Shown here piece by piece: positions 42,368 to 51,332 of a stretch of 64,000 nt of DNA. A program made the translations under genes and the position numbers. The notes beneath the pieces were generated by a model that had not been told where the DNA came from, did no database searches, and saw nothing but the letters and a program-made list of their open reading frames with translations. The number at the start of each line of letters is the position of its first letter. Positions within the stretch are counted from its first letter, which is position 1. Origin of the DNA: an uncultured Flavobacteriales bacterium (GTDB taxonomy: Bacteria > Bacteroidota > Bacteroidia > Flavobacteriales_G > Salibacteraceae); NCBI GenBank assembly GCA_913057205.1, contig CAJXNO010000004.1:1-64000 (forward strand), given 5' to 3'.

Positions 42368-42522
42368 GATGCTTTATTTGGTAGATACTCAGGTTTTCTT
42401 TTGTTCACTTTACGCGGATGCGTATGATCGGCGAAAATAAGGAGTTGAGGATTCTCAATCCGAAGGGAGTTGGATTCTTTGCTGGGTGATGGATGCTCAA
42501 CCTAAGTTGATGTTGTTTGGCG

Positions 42523-42552
42523 AGGTGCTTTAGCCTTAGTTTGCAAACGTTC
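42523..42552 (-). repeat. attC-like half-site closing the cassette array (element Z)
   Basis: The strand opposite reads GAACGTTTGCAAAC TAA GGCTAAAGCACC, the same R''-spacer-L'' order as the other elements. Its outer 14 bases pair 12/14 with 43137-43150 at the other end of the ParDE cassette. A second arm is not recognisable, so the site is degenerate or truncated. It overlaps the ParE stop codon by 1 nt. Confidence 0.6.
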
Positions 42553-42845
42553 TATTCCTTAAATATTAGATGTATGTCTTGTCTTCCAATGATAGACATG
42601 ATCTCAACAGTTTCATTTGCGACTCTGTAAAAGACGCTTTCAATACCGCAGACAGATCTTCTGTAACCGGGTCGAATGTGATCAATGGCTTCAAAGGCCA
42701 AAGGTCTCTGTGCGATAATTTCGAAATGATTGAATAACGCATCGAGATAGTTGTCAGCTTGTGCTTGACCTAACTTGACGATAACGAATTGATATATTCT
42801 GATTAGGTCTTCATTCGCCTGAACAGAGAGTTTATAATTAGGCAT
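42552..42845 (-). CDS. parE: ParE/RelE-family toxin
   Basis: This 97-aa protein starts at 42845 (MPNYKLSVQA). It shows the ParE order: ANEDLIRIYQFVIVKLGQAQ, FNHFEIIAQRPLAFEAID, PGYRRSVCGIESVFYRV, EIMSIIGRQD. ParE proteins inhibit gyrase and RelE relatives cut mRNA; these motifs fit ParE better. It overlaps the antitoxin gene by 8 nt as usual for such pairs. In this window the pair occupies the last cassette of the array, which may help to stabilise the array, an inference known from chromosomal integrons. Confidence 0.88.
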   Translation of the reverse strand: MPNYKLSVQANEDLIRIYQFVIVKLGQAQADNYLDALFNHFEIIAQRPLAFEAIDHIRPGYRRSVCGIESVFYRVANETVEIMSIIGRQDIHLIFKE

Positions 42846-43077
42846 CAAGACGCTTTTTTGCAGCAGCTTTGATGTCTTCCTTTGAGACATTGGAGAACCC
42901 ACTCTTCTCGGCCGACTCAAGTTTCATTCTCAACCAGTCAACTTGTTGTTGCTGCTTTCGAGCTTGTCGAATGAGATCATTAACCAATTCACTTTTACTA
43001 GAATATTCGTTATTGTCAACTTGACTCTTAAGCCATTGATCGTTTGGTTCGGTGAGAGAAATACTTTGTCTAGCCAT
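42838..43077 (-). CDS. parD: ParD-family antitoxin
   Basis: This 79-aa protein starts at 43077 (MARQSISLTEPNDQWLKSQV). The N-terminal ribbon-helix-helix (SISLTEPNDQW, NEYSSKSELVNDLIRQA) binds DNA, and the C-terminal helix (SGFSNVSKEDIKAAAKKRL) wraps the toxin. ParD usually represses its own operon. It precedes parE with an 8-nt overlap. Confidence 0.88.
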   Translation of the reverse strand: MARQSISLTEPNDQWLKSQVDNNEYSSKSELVNDLIRQARKQQQQVDWLRMKLESAEKSGFSNVSKEDIKAAAKKRLDA

Positions 43078-43136
43078 TGTAGTCACATTTGATGTAAAAA
43101 TACACCAAAAATGCATCAGCATGAAATTTCTTTCTT

Positions 43137-43275
43137 GAATGTTTGCTAACGGTTTGGCTATGGAATGTGCGGCTCAAGAACCTGGTACTCCGTAGCTGAG
43201 ATGATTGTGATTGAAAGATAGGAATCTGAATGATTTCGTGGGAAGTAGCATGTTCTATAGCCTTAGTTGTGCTCA
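43137..43275 (-). repeat. attC-like recombination site (element A)
   Basis: The imperfect inverted repeat has left arm GGCTATGGAATGTGC and right arm GCATGTTCTATAGCC. Its outer boxes are GCTAAC (43145-43150) and GTTGTGC (43266-43272). On the coding strand of the cassettes it reads ...GCACAAC TAA GGCTATAG ... CATAGCC AAACCG TTAGC, with unpaired spacers of 3 and 5 nt as in asymmetric attC sites. It lies between the parD start and the stop of the lipoprotein cassette. It shares the internal 12-mer GATTGAAAGATA with element C. Confidence 0.75.
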
Positions 43276-43280
43276 GTTAT

Positions 43281-43823
43281 TTATTTTTTTATCCATAGGT
43301 TCTTTTCAAATTCCATAGTCAAATTATCTGAAGTGTTTCCAGTAAAGGTGAATGTGTAAGAGGAGTCGTCAAGAGAAGAATTATCAATAAATTCTTGAGT
43401 AAAATGAATGTCAAAGTAAAGACCATCAACGGGTGAGTTAGTGTCTACATTGGTAAGCTCTAATAAATTGTAGCCGCTTTCAATTAGGTTTCCATTATAT
43501 TCAAATGACTTGTCTACGTTTAAAGAAAAAGTCTCATTGTCCAAGTGATTAATTTGCTCACGCGCACACGAAGTCGCATATACTGAATTCATTAAGGATA
43601 GTCCATTGAAACTGACTTGTTCAATTAAAAAATTGAATTGCACCCTAAGGAAGAAACTACCTGCCAAAGTGTCGAGGTCATCATTCATTTGATCTCCTTG
43701 GTAGGCAGTCAGTTTTCCTTCGCCCGTGTAGCGTTCTTCTATTTTGCAACAGCTTTGAAGTATACTCGACAGTATCACGACTGTATAGAGTCCAATAAGT
43801 GCCTTAAAGTAGATTGTTTTCAT
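43281..43823 (-). CDS. hypothetical lipoprotein (cassette gene)
   Basis: This 180-aa product has a lipoprotein signal (SSILQSCC). The mature part contains beta-strand-like segments and polar linkers (FFLRVQFNFLIEQVSFNGLS, YTFTFTGNTSDNLTMEFEKN). No family is recognised. Its codons are AT-rich compared with genes outside the array. The stop lies 6 bp from element A and the gene is framed by the complementary ends GTTGTGCTCA and TGAGCACAAC, so it is a one-gene mobile cassette. Confidence 0.6.
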   Translation of the reverse strand: MKTIYFKALIGLYTVVILSSILQSCCKIEERYTGEGKLTAYQGDQMNDDLDTLAGSFFLRVQFNFLIEQVSFNGLSLMNSVYATSCAREQINHLDNETFSLNVDKSFEYNGNLIESGYNLLELTNVDTNSPVDGLYFDIHFTQEFIDNSSLDDSSYTFTFTGNTSDNLTMEFEKNLWIKK

Positions 43824-43833
43824 TCTTATTAAT

Positions 43834-43970
43834 TGAGCACAACGGTTTCGTGTATAAGCAGTAGCGGATTAAAACCTATACGCTTTCAGAAAGAAAGATA
43901 CTTATTAAAAAATAATAGCGGTTCAAGTTTGCACCTAAACCGCTATTGCTTATACACTATGTTGTATGCC
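43834..43970 (-). repeat. attC-like recombination site (element B)
   Basis: The arms GTGTATAAGCAGTAGCGG (left) and CCGCTATTGCTTATACAC (right) pair with one mismatch over 18 bp. Outer boxes are GCACAAC and GTTGTATGC, with spacers GGTTTC and TAT. A nested repeat ATAGCGGTT/AACCGCTAT lies inside. It separates the orphan lipoprotein cassette from the Crp-regulator cassette. Confidence 0.8.
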
Positions 43971-43974
43971 GTTT

Positions 43975-44373
43975 TTATTCTTCTTTGTCTGCAGTTAAAT
44001 ATAACTTGCCCCAAGTTATTCTAGAAATAACAACCAATACAAGCACCATAATTGCAGGTACAGATAAATCAAAAGATTCTTCAATCATTTGGTGTGCTAT
44101 AAATGCGAGAAAAGCATTGAAAAAGTTACCTGCATAAGTCCACTCTTTTAGCCATTTTGGATTTGCTTTGATATCAAGTAAGATTGTTACAAGTGATATA
44201 ACGGCCATAAATTTTGTTACACCTAAAAGTGGATGCAACCAACGTGGAAAGTTGAGTAACTCGAAATAGTCAGACATAAAAGAATACTCTATAAAATAGC
44301 GTGAACCTCCTCCTAGATACATAAGAGCTAAAAGACTAGTTGTGATCCTGAAAATTAATTTGTTTTTGTTCAT
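43975..44373 (-). CDS. DoxX-like membrane protein (cassette gene)
   Basis: This 132-aa protein has four hydrophobic helices: LIFRITTSLLALMYLGGGSR, HPLLGVTKFMAVISLVTILL, FFNAFLAFIAHQMI and VPAIMVLVLVVISRI. The layout fits the DoxX-like family (DoxX_2/DUF4260-like small membrane proteins), which is tentative. It is the last of three genes in one cassette and starts 16 bp after the preceding membrane-protein gene. It probably acts in the inner membrane together with that protein. Confidence 0.65.
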   Translation of the reverse strand: MNKNKLIFRITTSLLALMYLGGGSRYFIEYSFMSDYFELLNFPRWLHPLLGVTKFMAVISLVTILLDIKANPKWLKEWTYAGNFFNAFLAFIAHQMIEESFDLSVPAIMVLVLVVISRITWGKLYLTADKEE

Positions 44374-44389
44374 TTTTTTAATTTTTGAA

Positions 44390-44983
44390 TTAGTAACCTA
44401 ACATTTTGAAAAATCCATTTATACCCATTGCCATAATTGGAAAAAATAACCCTGTTAATGCAGCAGCTACTATGGCAAAAATCCATTTACCACTTAATGG
44501 TGTTTTCTTTAAGCTTAAAGGTTTGTCTTTTTCGGATGCTATGAAATAGTTGCGAACTTTTGGTGTTAGTAGCAAGTAGAAAGCATAAAGTTCCAAAGCG
44601 AGATTGGTTAGCAACCAACCTGTTAGTACTAAACTAGGGGTGTTTTCGCCCATTGGACTTTTAAAAGGTGGTTGAAATATTTCAGTTACCAATCCTACTC
44701 CAAAGTCGGCTATGCCCCACCAAACCCAAGCTAAACCTATGGCATAGGTAATTATTTTGGGTCTTGTTGCTAATAAATACACAACAATAGGTGCTGTCAA
44801 GCCTATTAAAGCGTCTTGCCCAAGTGGAATTATCCATGCGGTGGGTAATACGTCTCCACCAAAAACCTCAATGCTTGGCATAAAGATGAAACCTAAAATA
44901 CGATAGGTCATCCAAGAGAGAATGATAAGGATGGTTGTTAGTTCTTTTGGTCTGTTTTTGACTGCATTCATTTTACTCTGCAT
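44390..44983 (-). CDS. multi-pass membrane protein (cassette gene)
   Basis: This 197-aa protein has five to six hydrophobic helices (ELTTILIILSWMTYRILGFI, ALIGLTAPIVVYLLA, IITYAIGLAWVWWGIADFGV, VLTGWLLTNLALELYAFYLL, IFAIVAAALTGLFFPIMAMG). I know no family name. It stands between a Crp-type regulator gene and a DoxX-like gene in the same cassette. A 16-bp palindrome lies 70-86 bp upstream, a suitable place for a regulator site. Confidence 0.65.
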   Translation of the reverse strand: MQSKMNAVKNRPKELTTILIILSWMTYRILGFIFMPSIEVFGGDVLPTAWIIPLGQDALIGLTAPIVVYLLATRPKIITYAIGLAWVWWGIADFGVGLVTEIFQPPFKSPMGENTPSLVLTGWLLTNLALELYAFYLLLTPKVRNYFIASEKDKPLSLKKTPLSGKWIFAIVAAALTGLFFPIMAMGINGFFKMLGY

Positions 44984-45053
44984 ATTATTGAATTAATAAT
45001 GCAAAGGTCTTATGAATTGGAATGGATAAAAATCTACTAGATTAAGAAAAGAA

Positions 45054-45069
45054 GTGAAACTAGTTTCAC
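45054..45069. promoter_or_regulatory. 16-bp palindrome after the Crp-type gene
   Basis: GTGAAACTAGTTTCAC is a perfect palindrome. It overlaps the stop codon of the Crp-family gene and lies upstream of the two membrane-protein genes. Dimeric Crp/Fnr proteins bind palindromes of this length, so it may be the site through which the regulator controls its cassette partners. Confidence 0.4.
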
Positions 45070-45647
45070 TTTGATTGCTTTTTTCTAAGTCGAGAAAGAT
45101 ATTGGGTGGTCATTCCCAAGTAAGAGGCAATGGTAAACTGTGGTACACGCTGTAGAAATTCAGGGTATTTTTCTACAAATTGTTCATACCGTTCTTCGGC
45201 AGTAAGTGTTAAACTAGCGATTAATCTGCGTTGCATAAAAGCAAGTCCTCTTTCTGCAACAGTTCTAAAAAAGGTTTCGAATTGATGGCTATGAGCTTTA
45301 AGTATTTGTTCATTTTCAAAATCCAATTGTAAAAGAGTACTATCTTCCAATGCTTCCACAAACATAGTAGCAGGTTTTTGATAGATATAACTATTCGGGT
45401 CTGAAATCCACCAACCGTCCATAGCAAGAGAAATCGTGTTTTCTTGTCCATCTTTACCAATTACATAAGCTTTGAATGTTCCCTGAACAACAAAAATTCG
45501 GTATTTAGCTATAAAGTCCGGTTGTATAATGAATTGTCTTTTTTTAACCTTTCGTTCTGTGAAATGAGAAACAAAAAAGGCAGCCTCTTTTTCTGTAAAA
45601 GAATGCTTTTCGATTAATTCGTTTTGAAGTGAATGAATTTCTGTCAT
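45066..45647 (-). CDS. Crp/Fnr-family transcriptional regulator (cassette gene)
   Basis: This 193-aa protein has an N-terminal cyclic-nucleotide-binding-like barrel (RKVKKRQFIIQPDFIAKYRI, VVQGTFKAYVIGKDGQENTI, WWISDPNSYIYQKPATMFVE). The C-terminal HTH (QRVPQFTIASYLGMTTQYLS) is of the Bacteroidota subgroup. It has no cysteine cluster like that of Fnr. It is the first gene of a three-gene cassette. A regulator travelling with its two membrane proteins is unusual for a cassette. Confidence 0.88.
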   Translation of the reverse strand: MTEIHSLQNELIEKHSFTEKEAAFFVSHFTERKVKKRQFIIQPDFIAKYRIFVVQGTFKAYVIGKDGQENTISLAMDGWWISDPNSYIYQKPATMFVEALEDSTLLQLDFENEQILKAHSHQFETFFRTVAERGLAFMQRRLIASLTLTAEERYEQFVEKYPEFLQRVPQFTIASYLGMTTQYLSRLRKKQSK

Positions 45648-45674
45648 TAATCTCTATTCTGTTGCTTTTCAAAT

Positions 45675-45810
45675 GGCATACAACGGTTTGGCTAAGAAAC
45701 GTGCGGCTTTAAAACCGTAAATTTCATCGCCAAGATGAATTTGGATTGAAAGATAAGTCGTGAATGTTTAACGTTCACTGAGTATGTTTGCTTAGCCTTT
45801 GTTGGCAACT
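45675..45810 (-). repeat. attC-like recombination site (element C)
   Basis: The left arm GGCTAAG (after AACGGTTT) pairs with the right arm CTTAGCC (before TTTGTTGGC). Outer boxes are GGCATACAAC and GTTGGCAACT. The internal stretch with GATTGAAAGATA (45744-45755) is shared with element A, which shows that A and C have a common origin. It lies between the Crp-gene start and the stop of the next cassette's gene. Confidence 0.75.
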
Positions 45811-45816
45811 GTATTT

Positions 45817-46308
45817 TTAATTCATTTCAATTATTACACTGTCTTTAATGATGGTAGAGTTATCTAGTTCTAACCTTCCTATTATCTTGTATTTTCCGCT
45901 ATTTGGCACTGAACTTTTAGAAGTTATTAAATACTGTAACCAAAAATTTTCTTCAAGATTTTCAATGGTGAAGTGTTGAGTAATGTCTGAATTTACTTCC
46001 ATCGTATCTTCATTTAATACAATCACATCACCCGCAAACAATTTCATTCCATTTTCAATTGGATAAGTGCTCCATGAATATTCACAAAATTCACCTGCTC
46101 CTTGATGAGTAAAATCAACAACAAAGTTGATGCTTCCATTTTGAAATTCATTTTCGTAGTAGCCATCTACATTTGACTCTCGATCAGTTTCAGTTGTTGT
46201 TACTGGAACTAAATTCATTTTTACTACTTTTCTTGAACATTCTCTCTTACAAGAATTGAAAATCGAAATTGAAAGGAGGATTAATATTTTAAATGCTCTT
46301 CTTTTCAT
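45817..46308 (-). CDS. hypothetical lipoprotein (cassette gene)
   Basis: This 163-aa product starts at 46308 (MKRRAFKILILLSISIFNSC); a longer frame would run through attC-like element D and is rejected. Lipidated Cys20 is followed by KRECSRKVV. The mature part looks like a beta sandwich (GYYENEFQNGSINFVVDFTH, SGKYKIIGRLELDNSTIIKD). No family is recognised. The gene is framed by GTTGGCAACT and AGTTGCCAAC. Confidence 0.6.
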   Translation of the reverse strand: MKRRAFKILILLSISIFNSCKRECSRKVVKMNLVPVTTTETDRESNVDGYYENEFQNGSINFVVDFTHQGAGEFCEYSWSTYPIENGMKLFAGDVIVLNEDTMEVNSDITQHFTIENLEENFWLQYLITSKSSVPNSGKYKIIGRLELDNSTIIKDSVIIEMN

Positions 46309-46310
46309 AT

Positions 46311-46376
46311 AGTTGCCAACGGTTGGGCTATGGTGCGTGTCCCATAGGGCATGCACTATAGCCTTTGTTAGGCAAT
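46311..46376 (-). repeat. attC-like recombination site (element D), shortest copy
   Basis: In 66 bp the arms TTGCCAACGGTTGGGCTATGG and TATAGCCTTTGTTAGGCAA give a compact hairpin. On the cassette coding strand it reads GCCTAAC AAA GGCTATAGTGCATG ... CATAGCC CAACCG TTGGCAACT. GCCTAAC fits the integron R'' consensus RYYYAAC exactly. Confidence 0.82.
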
Positions 46377-46389
46377 GTTTTTTCACTTT

Positions 46390-46710
46390 TCAAGGTGTAA
46401 TTTTCGGATGGTCAAAATCATTTGGTCCTTCAGTTCCTTTAATAAAGAACAGCACGATAATTAGCAGCTGTCCTATTGGAATAAGGATTAATAATGACCA
46501 CCAGCCGGATGTATTTATGTCATGTAATCTCCTAGCAGTCTGCATTAAATTTATAATGTAGTAAACCAATAAATAGAGTAATGAAATGACACCATATTGG
46601 GTAAAGGCAAGGAGAAAGGCAACTATTCCGCCAACAAGCAATAGAACTTGTACAAGTAAGTATTCAAGCTTATTAATCCTTCCTTTATAGGTCAATAAGT
46701 TCATTTTCAT
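46390..46710 (-). CDS. DUF805 membrane protein (cassette gene)
   Basis: This 106-aa protein has the DUF805 pattern: N-terminal TYKGRINKLEYLLVQVLLL, two to three hydrophobic helices, and the conserved ARRLHDINTSGWWSLLILIP. DUF805 proteins are small inner-membrane proteins of unknown role, often found on mobile DNA. The cassette ends GTTAGGCAAT and ATTGCCTAAC pair 10/10. Confidence 0.9.
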   Translation of the reverse strand: MKMNLLTYKGRINKLEYLLVQVLLLVGGIVAFLLAFTQYGVISLLYLLVYYIINLMQTARRLHDINTSGWWSLLILIPIGQLLIIVLFFIKGTEGPNDFDHPKITP

Positions 46711-46730
46711 CTAGATTTTATTTTTTAAAT

Positions 46731-46804
46731 ATTGCCTAACGTTCCGTGTATGGTGTCGTAGCATCCCGCAGGGTGCTATGCACTATACATATTGTTGTAA
46801 GCAG
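46731..46804 (-). repeat. attC-like recombination site (element E)
   Basis: In 74 bp the arms GTATGGTGTCGTAGCATCC and GGGTGCTATGCACTATAC pair with few mismatches. The outer box on the coding strand is GTTAGGC, which matches the integron R' consensus GTTRRRY exactly. The other outer box is GCTTACAAC. It separates the DUF805 cassette from the multicopper oxidase cassette. Confidence 0.82.
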
Positions 46805-46806
46805 TT

Positions 46807-48504
46807 TTAATTCACGATTATTTTTTTAACAAATCGGTCATTACCATATTCGAACATTATGAAATTAACCCCTTTAGGCATTTCTTCAATAGTTAGTTGT
46901 GAATTATCAAATTCTTTGATTGTCATTCGCTCTCTTCCCAATACATCATATACGATTATACTCGATGGGCGTTCACTAAAATTAATGGTAATTTTTCCAA
47001 TGGATGGGTTCGGAAAAATACTTATTCCCAAATCGTCAATTAGGTTGTCTGTAACTGACAAAGGGTTGGAAACAACAAATTGCCCCATCATTCCACCATC
47101 TTCGTGAGTCAGCATATGACAATGGTACATATAGGGTACAGAATCATTCGAAAACGTTTCAAATTTTGCTATGAAACGTACAGTTTCTTGTGGTCTAACC
47201 AGAACTACATCCTTTCTTCCTTGCTCATTAATTGCGGGAGCAACTCCATTTCTTGTTAAAATATAGAACTGTACATCGTGTATATGAAATGGGTGCGAAA
47301 TTCCTGATTGGTTAGTCAGTTCCCAAATTTCAGTATTATCAAGTGGTATTGTGTAGTTAATGACATTTAAATCCATTGTTGCTCCATTTATCAAGAATTC
47401 ACCATTAAGCTGATTTGGTCCCATAGTAACTGGTGAAAAAGTCAGTGTTCTTGTAATATTTGAATTAATTTCAGGAATAGGAGTAACAGTTACCAAACCA
47501 GATGGGATTGATGATATGGGATTAACTGTCTGTACTCCTACGTTAAATTGAAGAACATCAAAGTCAGCACCATTCAATGGGTTCGGATTATAACCAGTCA
47601 TTGTCATTCCAGCTCCCATACCTGGATTTGTCGCACCGTATATTCCATTTGGCAATTCAGAAGCATAACTTTTTAAAAATGCCGTTTGTCCGTTCATACT
47701 TGAAAAATCTATAAGTAATTCTGCTCTTTCTCCTGGTGCTAACAATAGTCTTGTTAATTGAACAGGTGCTGACAACAATCCACCATCAGAAGCTATTTGA
47801 TGAAAAGTTTGATTATTACTCAATCCAAGATTAAAAGCTCTTTGTGATGAACCATTTAAAACTCTACATCGTACTACCTGAGACGGCACATCTAAGAAAG
47901 GGTCTATTGTTGCGTTGACCATTACAATATCATCTGAATTTGAGTGTACTACGATTTGGTTACTACTGTCAAAATCTTTTGTTTGAATTACTAATGGGAA
48001 ATCATCAACACCATAAGTTCTTGGTAGAGCAAGAGCCGCTTCTGCGTTATCTTTTACTATTATCATTCCAGCAATCCCTTTTGAAACGTGTTTATCTGTA
48101 AAGTGATGCAAATGTGGATGATACCAATAAGTTGCAGCTTTATCTAAAATTGTGAAACTTGGCGACCAAGTTGTATTTTGTGGTATTGTAGTATGAGGTC
48201 CCCCATCATTTTCTGCTGATACGTGCATACCGTGCCAATGAATAGTAGTTGTATCTGCCAATTGGTTTGTAACATTAAAATTCACAAAATCACCTTGATT
48301 AAGTATTAATGTTGGCCCCAGAATATTGCCGTTTGCACCCATTGTGTTGGTTGACGATCCACTTAAAAATTGTTTTGTCCCATTTTGTAGGGTTAAATTG
48401 ATGTTTACCCCAGATAAAGTGTCTGGAATAATCAATGCGTTTTGGGCATTTCCTAAATGAAAAAATAGAATCCCAATTAGAGTAATAGTTGTTTTTTTTA
48501 TCAT
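46807..48504 (-). CDS. T9SS-exported multicopper oxidase (cassette gene)
   Basis: This 565-aa protein has a signal peptide (cut near GNA-QNA). It has three cupredoxin domains with all four copper-binding motifs: HWHGMHV (about residue 90), WYHPHLHHF (about 131), HPFHIHDVQF (about 405) and MYHCHMLTHEDGGMM (about 462). Copper or bilirubin-oxidase-like CueO enzymes have this layout. The last ~85 residues are a T9SS sorting domain (IFPNPSIGKITINF to KIIVN), so export uses the host's type IX system. It is the first cassette after the recombinase gene. Confidence 0.9.
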   Translation of the reverse strand: MIKKTTITLIGILFFHLGNAQNALIIPDTLSGVNINLTLQNGTKQFLSGSSTNTMGANGNILGPTLILNQGDFVNFNVTNQLADTTTIHWHGMHVSAENDGGPHTTIPQNTTWSPSFTILDKAATYWYHPHLHHFTDKHVSKGIAGMIIVKDNAEAALALPRTYGVDDFPLVIQTKDFDSSNQIVVHSNSDDIVMVNATIDPFLDVPSQVVRCRVLNGSSQRAFNLGLSNNQTFHQIASDGGLLSAPVQLTRLLLAPGERAELLIDFSSMNGQTAFLKSYASELPNGIYGATNPGMGAGMTMTGYNPNPLNGADFDVLQFNVGVQTVNPISSIPSGLVTVTPIPEINSNITRTLTFSPVTMGPNQLNGEFLINGATMDLNVINYTIPLDNTEIWELTNQSGISHPFHIHDVQFYILTRNGVAPAINEQGRKDVVLVRPQETVRFIAKFETFSNDSVPYMYHCHMLTHEDGGMMGQFVVSNPLSVTDNLIDDLGISIFPNPSIGKITINFSERPSSIIVYDVLGRERMTIKEFDNSQLTIEEMPKGVNFIMFEYGNDRFVKKIIVN

Positions 48505-48520
48505 TTTATTTTTTATTTAA

Positions 48521-48600
48521 TTGCTTACAACTTCGTTATAACGCAAATTAAGGATTTTATTCATCCCTTAATTTGCGGGATAACGAAGTGCTTTGTGTTA
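48521..48600 (-). repeat. attI/attC-like site at the recombinase end (element F)
   Basis: The most perfect hairpin of the set: ACTTCGTTAT (48530-48539) pairs with ATAACGAAGT (48580-48589), and CGCAAATTAAGG (48542-48553) with CCTTAATTTGCG (48566-48577), separated only by 2-nt internal loops. The outer box TTGCTTACAAC pairs 10/11 with GTTGTAAGCAG at the far end of the oxidase cassette. The right arm lies within the last 14 codons of the recombinase gene. It may be the primary insertion site. Confidence 0.75.
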
Positions 48601-49750
48601 AATTATTGTCCATTGGTAGACGTTGATGGAAGTCCTTCATCAGCGTGTCAAATGGGTTCTTTAAATGCATCAGGTGCTCACTGGCTACGTGGGTGTAGAT
48701 CTGTGTGGTTTCTGGTCTGGTGTGTCCTAGTAGCTCTTGCACGTACCTCAAATTTACACCTTCTTCTATCATGTGCGTGGCGAAACTATGTCGTAGCATG
48801 TGCGGCGTAACGTTCTTGTTTAACCGGGCTTTTTTCGCGGCGTTTTTTAGGATGGACCTTACACTCACTGCGCTGTATTGCGCGTTGCCTTGTCCGTTGA
48901 AAACGTAATCGATTGGGCGAAATTGGTTGATGTAATTGTTGAGTATGATGGCCATTTGCTCTCCCATGATCACCAAGCGGTCTTTTTTGCCTTTGGCTTG
49001 CTTGATCATCATGGAACGGTGGTCCAGATCCAGATCTTGTAGCCTTAAGTTTAAAAGCTCACTGATACGTAGGCCTGAACTGTAGATCAGACTCAGCATG
49101 GTTCGGTGCTTCAGGTTATTGCAACAACTCAAAAGTGCCATGATTTCGGTGCGCGTTAATACCTTGGGAAGGCGTTGCTCTTTCTTAGGACCCTCCACTT
49201 TGTCAATGACTAAAAGCGGTAGGTCATTGGCCTCAAACAGCATACGCATGGTGGTGATGAACTGTCGTTGGGTGCTGTTGGCATAACCGTTCTTTATAAG
49301 GTGATCGGTTTGGAAGTAGATAACGTCCTTGTTGCGGAGTTCTTTGGGGTCTTTTTGTGTGAAAAGGAAAAATTTGCGGGCAAGCTGTTCATAGGTGTCC
49401 ACGGTGCTTTTGCTTCGTCCTTTTATCTTGAGGTACCTCACTAAGTGTAAAATGGCTTCGGTTTGTGCTTCACTGAGCCGGTGACCTTTGATGGCAGACC
49501 AAGCCGCTTGTTGATCTCTCTTGTTCTGGAATTCTGCTGGCCAACGGAGATGAGCAATACCATCAAACTGTTCTTCAAGACTTAACAAGTTTTGCTTGGT
49601 GTCGGTTAAGTACCAGGCTCGATCTTCCGGACTCCAACGTGCCCGAATCTGTTTACACCGGTTGATGAGGTCTACGTCATAATCAAACCTTAGAAAGATA
49701 CGAGAGACCCCGTTCCTGTGCTCGAATGATATTCTAATGAATGGCAACAT
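48557..49750 (-). CDS. tyrosine recombinase at the head of the cassette array
   Basis: This 397-aa enzyme has an N-terminal extra domain (residues 1-75, FLRFDYDVDLINRCKQIRAR then WSPEDRAWYL), a SAM-like core-binding domain (about 95-180) and a catalytic domain with Arg228 (SGLRISELL), His317-x-x-Arg320 (TPHMLRHSF), His343 (LLGHT) and the nucleophile Tyr352 (IYTHV). The tail KNPFDTL resembles the SPLDxL tail of integron integrases. The roughly 20-residue insertion that marks IntI between the Arg and His boxes is not present. It is transcribed toward the cassettes, in their direction. Confidence 0.92.
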   Translation of the reverse strand: MLPFIRISFEHRNGVSRIFLRFDYDVDLINRCKQIRARWSPEDRAWYLTDTKQNLLSLEEQFDGIAHLRWPAEFQNKRDQQAAWSAIKGHRLSEAQTEAILHLVRYLKIKGRSKSTVDTYEQLARKFFLFTQKDPKELRNKDVIYFQTDHLIKNGYANSTQRQFITTMRMLFEANDLPLLVIDKVEGPKKEQRLPKVLTRTEIMALLSCCNNLKHRTMLSLIYSSGLRISELLNLRLQDLDLDHRSMMIKQAKGKKDRLVIMGEQMAIILNNYINQFRPIDYVFNGQGNAQYSAVSVRSILKNAAKKARLNKNVTPHMLRHSFATHMIEEGVNLRYVQELLGHTRPETTQIYTHVASEHLMHLKNPFDTLMKDFHQRLPMDNNLTQSTSLSRKLRDE

Positions 49751-51064: not shown

Positions 51065-51194
51065 AAAGACACCTGTCCGCCTCAGGCGGACAAGCACGAA
51101 TACCGCTGAACAACAACATGACATGAGTAAAAGACACCTGTCCGCCTCAGGCGGGCAAGCACGAATACCGCTGAAAACAAGATGGCATGAGTAA
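51065..51194. repeat. two tandem copies of a 65-bp unit with a palindromic core
   Basis: Copies at 51065-51129 and 51130-51194 share AAAGACACCTGTCCGCCTCA, GCAAGCACGAATACCGCTGA and CATGAGTAA. Each has a hairpin core (GTCCGCC TCA GGCGGAC in copy 1, one base changed in copy 2). They lie upstream of the thioesterase gene, in the gap before ispE. Confidence 0.85.
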
Positions 51195-51215
51195 AAGACC
51201 AAAGACAGCATTATC

Positions 51216-51332
51216 AGCAGCCAACAGCCATGAGCCATGAGCCAAGAGCCAACAGCCAACAGCCAATAGCCATTAGCTAGAAGCCAGAAGCCAGCAGCAA
51301 GCAACAAGCAGCCAGCCGCCAACTAACAGCTT
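51216..51332. repeat. degenerate short tandem repeat of AGCCAACAGCCA type
   Basis: About 115 bp are made of 7-10-bp steps such as AGCCATG, AGCCAAC, AGCCAGA and AGCAAGC. The tract ends 18 bp before the ispE start. It codes for nothing convincing; it looks like a slipped-strand microsatellite. Confidence 0.8.

Follow-up and report, generated by a model that had tools for sequence, protein, structure and literature searches.

An apparent integron-type gene-capture platform with an insertion-less recombinase in a Flavobacteriales genome

The window analysed here is a stretch of 64,000 nucleotides from an uncultured Flavobacteriales bacterium of the family Salibacteraceae (GenBank assembly GCA_913057205.1, contig CAJXNO010000004.1, positions 1 to 64,000). 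A tyrosine recombinase gene on the minus strand is followed downstream, on the same strand, by an array of six cassettes that reaches down to about position 42,540 (Table 1). An earlier note on this DNA had placed the recombinase upstream of the cassettes on the same strand, and this order holds. The GC content is 0.32-0.38 across most of the array, compared with about 0.45-0.55 in the surroundings. Each cassette starts with GTT-N7-ATT, with small variations, and ends with AAC-N7'-AAC, where N7' is the reverse complement of N7. The cassettes are separated by hairpins of about 70-80 or 142 nt. The first cassette starts 25 nt past the recombinase stop, and this start fits the end of cassette 1 at 7/7 positions. 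The hairpin at the 3' end of the recombinase gene (48530-48589) is best read as an attI-like insertion site, and not as the attC of a cassette. The last cassette encodes a ParD/ParE-like pair (42555-43077); toxin-antitoxin cassettes occur in large integrons. Elsewhere in the window, an intergenic run of short imperfect repeats (CAACAGCCAATAGCC...) was seen at 51065-51319, with two near-identical 46-nt copies at 51065 and 51130.

Table 1. Features assigned to the recombinase locus and its cassette array (positions in the window; the arrow marks the predicted crossover)
Feature	Position	Strand	Details
Insertion-less integron-type tyrosine recombinase (putative)	48557..49750	minus	397 aa; RKHRHY intact, KNPFDTL tail
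N-terminal extension, residues 1-90, DUF5710-like motif	49481..49750	minus	alignment, Pfam; not family-wide
attI-like site: palindrome over recombinase stop, then G↓TT crossover (G 48531, TT 48530-48529)	48530..48589	minus	inverted repeat
Cassette 1: multicopper oxidase with secretion tail (46807-48504)	46740..48530	minus	ends 7/7 complementary; Pfam
attC-like site B	46728..46806	minus	R2 66.3 bits; in model training
Cassette 2: DUF805 protein (46390-46710)	46320..46739	minus	ends 7/7
attC-like site C	46308..46379	minus	R2 69.6 bits; in model training
Cassette 3: protein without Pfam match (45820-46308)	45684..46319	minus	ends 7/7
attC-like site D	45672..45813	minus	R2 64.2 bits; trimmed copy in R1 training
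Cassette 4: cNMP-binding regulator (45066-45647), no-match protein (44390-44983), DoxX-like protein (43975-44373)	43843..45683	minus	ends 7/7
attC-like site E	43831..43973	minus	R2 80.8 bits; trimmed copy in R1 training
Cassette 5: protein without Pfam match (43281-43823)	43150..43842	minus	ends 7/7
attC-like site F	43138..43278	minus	R2 61.1 bits; trimmed copy in R1 training
Cassette 6, array end: ParD-like (42838-43077) and ParE-like (42555-42842) toxin-antitoxin pair	42539..43149	minus	ends 6/7; Pfam ParD_antitoxin, ParE_toxin
Terminal half-site: left box AAC-N7-AAC, no right half found	42500..42551, extent approximate	minus	by eye; no R2 match

The window recombinase matches the Pfam Phage_integrase model (E 1.3e-44), and a SAM-like core-binding domain lies at residues 103-173 (Pfam/NCBIfam). 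R228, K253, H317, R320, H343, and Y352 are all present, and are invariant in 16 aligned family members. The spacing from the catalytic K to the HxxR box is 63-66 residues in 60 insertion-less recombinases, exactly 106 in 27 of 27 true IntI, and 68-72 in 17 Xer proteins. The additional domain specific to IntI (I2) is absent from the window recombinase, as it is from Xer. The KNPFDTL tail corresponds to I-x-SPLD-x-I in the relatives; a tail of the SP(L/F)D type was found in 55 of 60 insertion-less recombinases, 25 of 27 IntI, and 0 of 17 Xer. The earlier note had described the catalytic residues (R228, H317, R320, H343, and Y352) as intact, the tail as IntI-like, and the IntI insertion as absent, all of which is borne out. 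The extra N-terminal domain, which it had put at 75 residues, is real; it spans about 90 residues and is not universal in the family.

With the integron-integrase model TIGR02249, the window recombinase reaches 189 bits, below the cut-off of 265, and the match is split in two around the missing insertion. The match to the Vibrio IntI structure (2a3v) is likewise split there. The best NCBIfam match is NF040815, an archaeal-type XerA model, and the PDB structures closest by sequence are XerA. Some proteins of the insertion-less kind have already been named 'site-specific tyrosine recombinase/integron integrase' by NCBI. In 4 of the 16 aligned members, the N-terminal motif GARWS....WY corresponds to Pfam DUF5710 (best 1.8e-4); the window recombinase itself had no DUF5710 match at the threshold used. 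L164, L166, L168, and L173 align only from about residue 85, yet they carry arrays. Structure prediction gave no usable model of the whole recombinase (pLDDT 35) and a weak single-sequence AF2 model of the N-terminal domain (pLDDT 60). A role for the N-terminal domain is presumed from sequence.

Nine sites were aligned, including five from the window and four from the genus mate L049. In this alignment, 10 of 17 stem pairs have changed on both sides, the unpaired central spacer is retained, and paired cells amount to 89.5%, compared with 18-33% in slid controls. A strict attC scanner overlooked most sites, and covariance models were used instead: R1 was built from the nine aligned sites, and R2 from 46 R1 matches in 20 loci chosen for their R1 match. 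The matching of cassette ends is information that these models do not use. Between neighbouring sites, the end core fits the start core at 6/7 or better in 92 of 108 pairs; the value is 2.2% for random pairs, and the two cores of one same site reach it in only 5 of 150 cases. The 92 matched cores hold 77 different N7, which indicates that base pairing within the cassette is conserved, and not the sequence. Of 95 cassettes of up to 2.5 kb, 87 have their ORFs in the direction of the recombinase. These counts leave out 10 of 160 sites with unparsable cores and, for the ORFs, 15 of 110 cassettes longer than 2.5 kb. Tandem cassettes, mostly in one ORF direction, and attC hairpins with complementary R boxes, as in an integron, are all found here. 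Chance hairpins are ruled out by the covariation, the cassette-end matching, and the strand and side bias.

The start of the first cassette, as predicted from the first attC, lies at most 400 nt downstream of the recombinase in 31 of 39 loci, at an attI-like position that would be the entry point of the cassettes. A perfect inverted repeat of at least 8 bp stands ahead of this start in 9 of the 31 loci, compared with 0.5 expected. Two genus mates, the sister species G021 and G019, are 97.3% identical over recombinase and attI (1218/1252), and 98.4% identical in the last 123 columns. Past G↓TT, they carry different cassettes, and the alignment identity is 44% over the next 200 columns. Their homology breaks exactly at the predicted crossover. 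Judged by sequence only, an attI that adjoins the integrase and receives cassettes is present, as in integrons.

Relatives of the window recombinase were found in 19 of 35 family genomes (E<=1e-40). A profile (A3) was built from 16 of the family relatives, leaving out L031 for its internal stop. It detected relatives in 195 of 395 sampled class genomes (E<=1e-70) and in 116 of 395 phylum genomes (E<=1e-65), many of them outside the class. True IntI over the cut-off was found in 105 of the 395 phylum genomes; within the class, G071 was the only one among the matches listed. No IntI exceeded the TIGR02249 cut-off in the own genome or in any of the 35 family genomes.

The loci examined for sites comprise 20 of 21 family relatives (one tiny contig was omitted), and 40 further class loci; these were not a random sample but were hand-picked from the listed A3 matches so as to cover diverse families and to offer apparent room downstream. 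R1 at E<1e-5 found sites in 7 of the 20 family loci, all downstream on the recombinase strand. R2 at E<=0.01 gave 160 matches across 61 recombinase loci and one other locus. All 156 sites of the 61 recombinase loci, of which 44 had also served in R2 training, lie downstream on the recombinase strand; none was found upstream in 318 kb. At least one site was present in 34 of the 37 loci that have 5 kb or more downstream, and L130, L172, and L175 had none at E<=0.01. There were no R2 matches in 20 true-IntI loci and three other recombinase loci of the own genome, two of them Xer. The contig breaks off 79-1362 nt past the recombinase in 7 of 20 class loci, an outcome to be expected from repeated arrays.

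At E<=1e-6, R2 matches 232 of the 395 class genomes. Recombinase and sites occur together in 160 of them, the recombinase only in 35, sites only in 72, and neither in 128; kinship is ignored here, and since the genomes share ancestry, these counts are not independent. The 72 genomes with sites and no recombinase at the threshold used imply that some sites live without a recombinase. Among named Bacteroidota, the plasmids of Chryseobacterium sp. SNU WT5 and Rufibacter tibetensis each carry an apparently full-length recombinase with R2 sites downstream. Their cassette ends fit less well: of five scorable neighbouring pairs, three agree at 6/7 positions, another at 5/7, and the last at 3/7. A second, scattered set of R2 sites was seen in the own genome on contig C11 (L087:10065-14320), around MutT-like and HNH-like genes named by eye. 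No insertion-less recombinase was found in the stretch examined around them. A 385-aa integrase that adjoins the C11 array was considered as its recombinase and rejected, as it belongs to another family and is unrelated to the array. A scan of the own-genome contigs gave two weak matches only.

The folds of these sites differ from those of IntI attC sites. Single-base bulges in the L stem (extrahelical bases) were predicted in 9 of 92 sites versus 17 of 20 IntI sites, using folds with trimmed loops and an IntI control limited to 20 sites from three loci. The extrahelical bases that mark the L stem of the attC bottom strand in integrons are therefore absent from most sites here. On the top strand, A.C occurs at two fixed stem positions, the outer in 44 and the inner in 34 of 46 sites; outside the R1 training loci, the counts are 37/39 and 28/39. 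Position 11 of the cassette ends is A.C in 76 of 92 cases. An A.C on the top strand is a T.G wobble pair on the bottom strand. The bottom strand is the more stable one in 83 of 92 circle sites, and on average in 26 of 27 loci. The IntI sites have a smaller difference in strand stability, and their bottom strand is favoured in 15 of 20. As stated in passages of PMC2727003, PMC7790495, and PMC4792948, the I2 helix of IntI docks the extrahelical bases of the attC bottom strand, and these bases direct the strand choice. Passages of the latter two papers also link I2 to single-strand substrates and to the avoidance of second strand exchange. We infer from the conserved positions that G.T wobble pairs might take the place of the extrahelical bases that I2 recognises in IntI sites.

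A phylogenetic tree was reconstructed from 108 proteins; L037 and L175 were dropped for a low score or a broken gene. The IntI form one clade and the Xer (17 rows) another, each with 100/100 support. The insertion-less recombinases fall outside both clades, and two separate Xer proteins of the own genome lie inside the Xer clade. L199 (L199:6709-12180) and L200, from the phylum outside the class, are insertion-less proteins of 301-312 aa that group with IntI (85/98). They are a candidate sister group of IntI. An R2-type site lies downstream of L199 on the recombinase strand; none was seen at L200. Monophyly of the other insertion-less recombinases was not resolved in this tree (one change in 24% of bootstrap trees).

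A tblastn search against plasmids led to truncated relatives of the insertion-less recombinase, directly ahead of tet(X3) (L201) and blaVEB-3 (L202). The blaVEB-1 gene in a class 1 integron of Klebsiella pneumoniae (NZ_CP027043, L205:1501-2584) has an R2-type attC (64.3 bits, E 5e-17), and its cassette ends AGCGGTA/TACCGCT match at 7/7. The blaVEB-3 gene (NZ_CP061701, L202:5061-6682) follows a truncated recombinase at its attI-like site, and it starts at the G↓TT that also marks the start of blaVEB-1. In plasmid pWB8 of Sphingobacterium faecium (L206:2367-3850), an R2-type site lies ahead of tet(X2) (48 bits), and the ends are ATGTGCC/GGCACAT (7/7). In plasmid pJAT2091 of Acinetobacter baylyi (L201:3974-5923), tet(X3) lies directly behind the truncated recombinase and an attI-like palindrome. 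Its start is the same as that of tet(X2), and its 3' end is mismatched (GGCTACT). The truncated gene with attI ahead of tet(X3)/tet(X5) has matches in 51 plasmid records, 50 of them from Acinetobacter; a passage of PMC8635130 calls the gene ahead of tet(X3) xerD. Both blaVEB and tet(X), resistance genes found worldwide, thus look like cassettes that belong to the insertion-less system. As blaVEB-1 carries such a site in class 1 integrons, the sites are not exclusive to the insertion-less enzyme, and class 1 IntI1 can evidently use at least one of them.

The platform would offer an origin and a mechanism for these resistance genes. It is also a possible account of an uptake without homology described in Riemerella anatipestifer, of the same phylum (PMC13148043). 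According to that paper, a resistance gene was integrated together with 27 bp of preceding and 140 bp of following sequence, without flanking homology; the 140-bp tail folds like attC, the uptake was site-specific, and the authors could not name the mechanism.

Taken together, the locus is most probably a gene-capture platform of the integron type, with an integrase devoid of the I2 insertion of IntI; we put the probability at roughly 0.86. In such a platform, the recombinase gene, a short attI-like site, and the cassettes would follow one another on the same strand. Each cassette end would be followed by a hairpin, and the far side of this hairpin would bear the GTT with which the next cassette opens. 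Once a cassette is excised as a circle, its two ends would meet as one long hairpin, the attC. The enzyme would most likely bind the folded bottom strand, cut at G↓TT, and join the cassette to the attI behind its own gene; new cassettes would thus arrive beside the recombinase. Catalysis on folded single strands by an insertion-less enzyme, and the use of the bottom strand, are predicted from sequence. The earlier note had offered two readings, one of them being that this enzyme recombines attC-like sites by another recognition mode. This reading gains support from the association with arrays, the few extrahelical bases, and the conserved wobbles.

The recombinase might instead move the cassettes by ordinary double-strand recombination at GTT, the hairpin being incidental or serving expression or transcription termination. 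Such a reading would suit an enzyme without I2, which passages of PMC7790495 and PMC4792948 tie to single-strand substrates, and Xer-like enzymes do work on double strands. However, double-strand recombination has no need of the complementarity kept across 77 N7 cores. The stem covariation, the strand asymmetry found in 26 of 27 loci, and the kept central spacer also speak against it, and we regard it as unlikely. Far less credible is the explanation that a Xer-type enzyme of housekeeping or phage origin works on a dif-like site of its own, and that the cassettes exploit it as IMEX exploit Xer. It would agree with the XerA matches in NCBIfam and the PDB, but the own genome already has two Xer proteins in a separate, fully supported clade, the IntI-like tail is foreign to Xer, and the array adjoins the gene.

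The other reading of the earlier note was that the array was mobilised by an integrase encoded elsewhere. The array would then be a CALIN, moved by a canonical IntI located elsewhere or formerly present, and the recombinase would be a mere neighbour. The cassette ends and hairpins do resemble those of integron cassettes, sites occur without a detected recombinase in the 72 class genomes and on contig C11, and among class 1 cassettes, blaVEB-1 carries such a site. On the other hand, neither the own genome nor its family has an IntI over the cut-off, nearly all roomy loci have sites downstream of the insertion-less recombinase, the true-IntI loci have none, and the first cassette starts at a fixed position relative to the recombinase gene. 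We consider this reading quite improbable for the array. The earlier note had also raised the prospects that relatives of the recombinase never lie beside such arrays, and that an IntI elsewhere in the genome moves the cassettes; the searches above found neither. An integrase encoded elsewhere is thus not needed here, although the case of blaVEB-1 suggests that IntI1 can act on such a site.

A broader interpretation may be drawn for the insertion-less recombinases in general. They might constitute a second kind of integron in Bacteroidia and beyond, which reads the folded attC by G.T wobbles and from which class 1 integrons and plasmids of Acinetobacter have received blaVEB and tet(X). I2 would then be no precondition for the recombination of hairpin cassettes, and the platform may be similar to the ancestral state of IntI. 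We hold this whole interpretation to be only slightly favoured. In passages of PMC7790495 on integron evolution, the I2 helix and single-strand recombination are confined to IntI, and the acquisition of I2 is seen as the innovation. This claim becomes directly testable with a lineage that has integron cassettes but lacks I2. IntegronFinder 2 gave Salinibacter as the sole complete integron in Bacteroidetes proper, as stated in a passage of PMC9024848. Searches keyed to IntI would miss such platforms, whose sites are found here in more than half of the class genomes. Searches of freely available, non-preprint full-text literature turned up no description of integron integrases without the insertion in Bacteroidia.

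The platform may be compared with several known systems. Integrons with IntI (class 1, the sedentary integrons of Vibrio, and L152, L154, and L158 in Bacteroidota) resemble it in several respects: a tyrosine recombinase with an SPLD tail stands next to an attI-like site, the cassettes follow in tandem and in a single orientation, the attC-type hairpins have R boxes that match and a spacer that stays unpaired, and the cut is placed at G↓TT. They differ in that IntI has I2 and its sites have extrahelical bases; the insertion-less platform mostly has no such bases and has conserved G.T wobbles. The insertion-less recombinase often has an N-terminal extension, DUF5710-like in some members, unlike IntI. 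It is also co-directional with the array, whereas IntI is divergent in L152, L154, and L158; co-direction is weakened as a unique mark, as several IntI contigs of the phylum also break just behind intI.

IntegronFinder applies the term CALIN to attC clusters that have no IntI. As no gene beside the sites passes the IntI profile, an IntI-based search would class the present array as a CALIN. It differs from the CALIN in having a dedicated, conserved recombinase beside it; all 61 loci have one by selection, and 34 of the 37 roomy loci have sites. XerA, XerC, and XerD have a similar catalytic fold and no I2, but they form a separate clade without the SPLD tail, and no arrays were found at the three own-genome control loci (two Xer). 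The 'xerD' ahead of tet(X3) in Acinetobacter is a truncated relative. It has 46% identity over residues 185-370 and a KSPMDLLDI end, followed by an attI-like palindrome and GTT-N7-ATT. It differs in being a C-terminal part only, located between insertion sequences. L199 and L200 also have no insertion and an SPLD-type tail; they differ in having no N-terminal extension, and they group with IntI.
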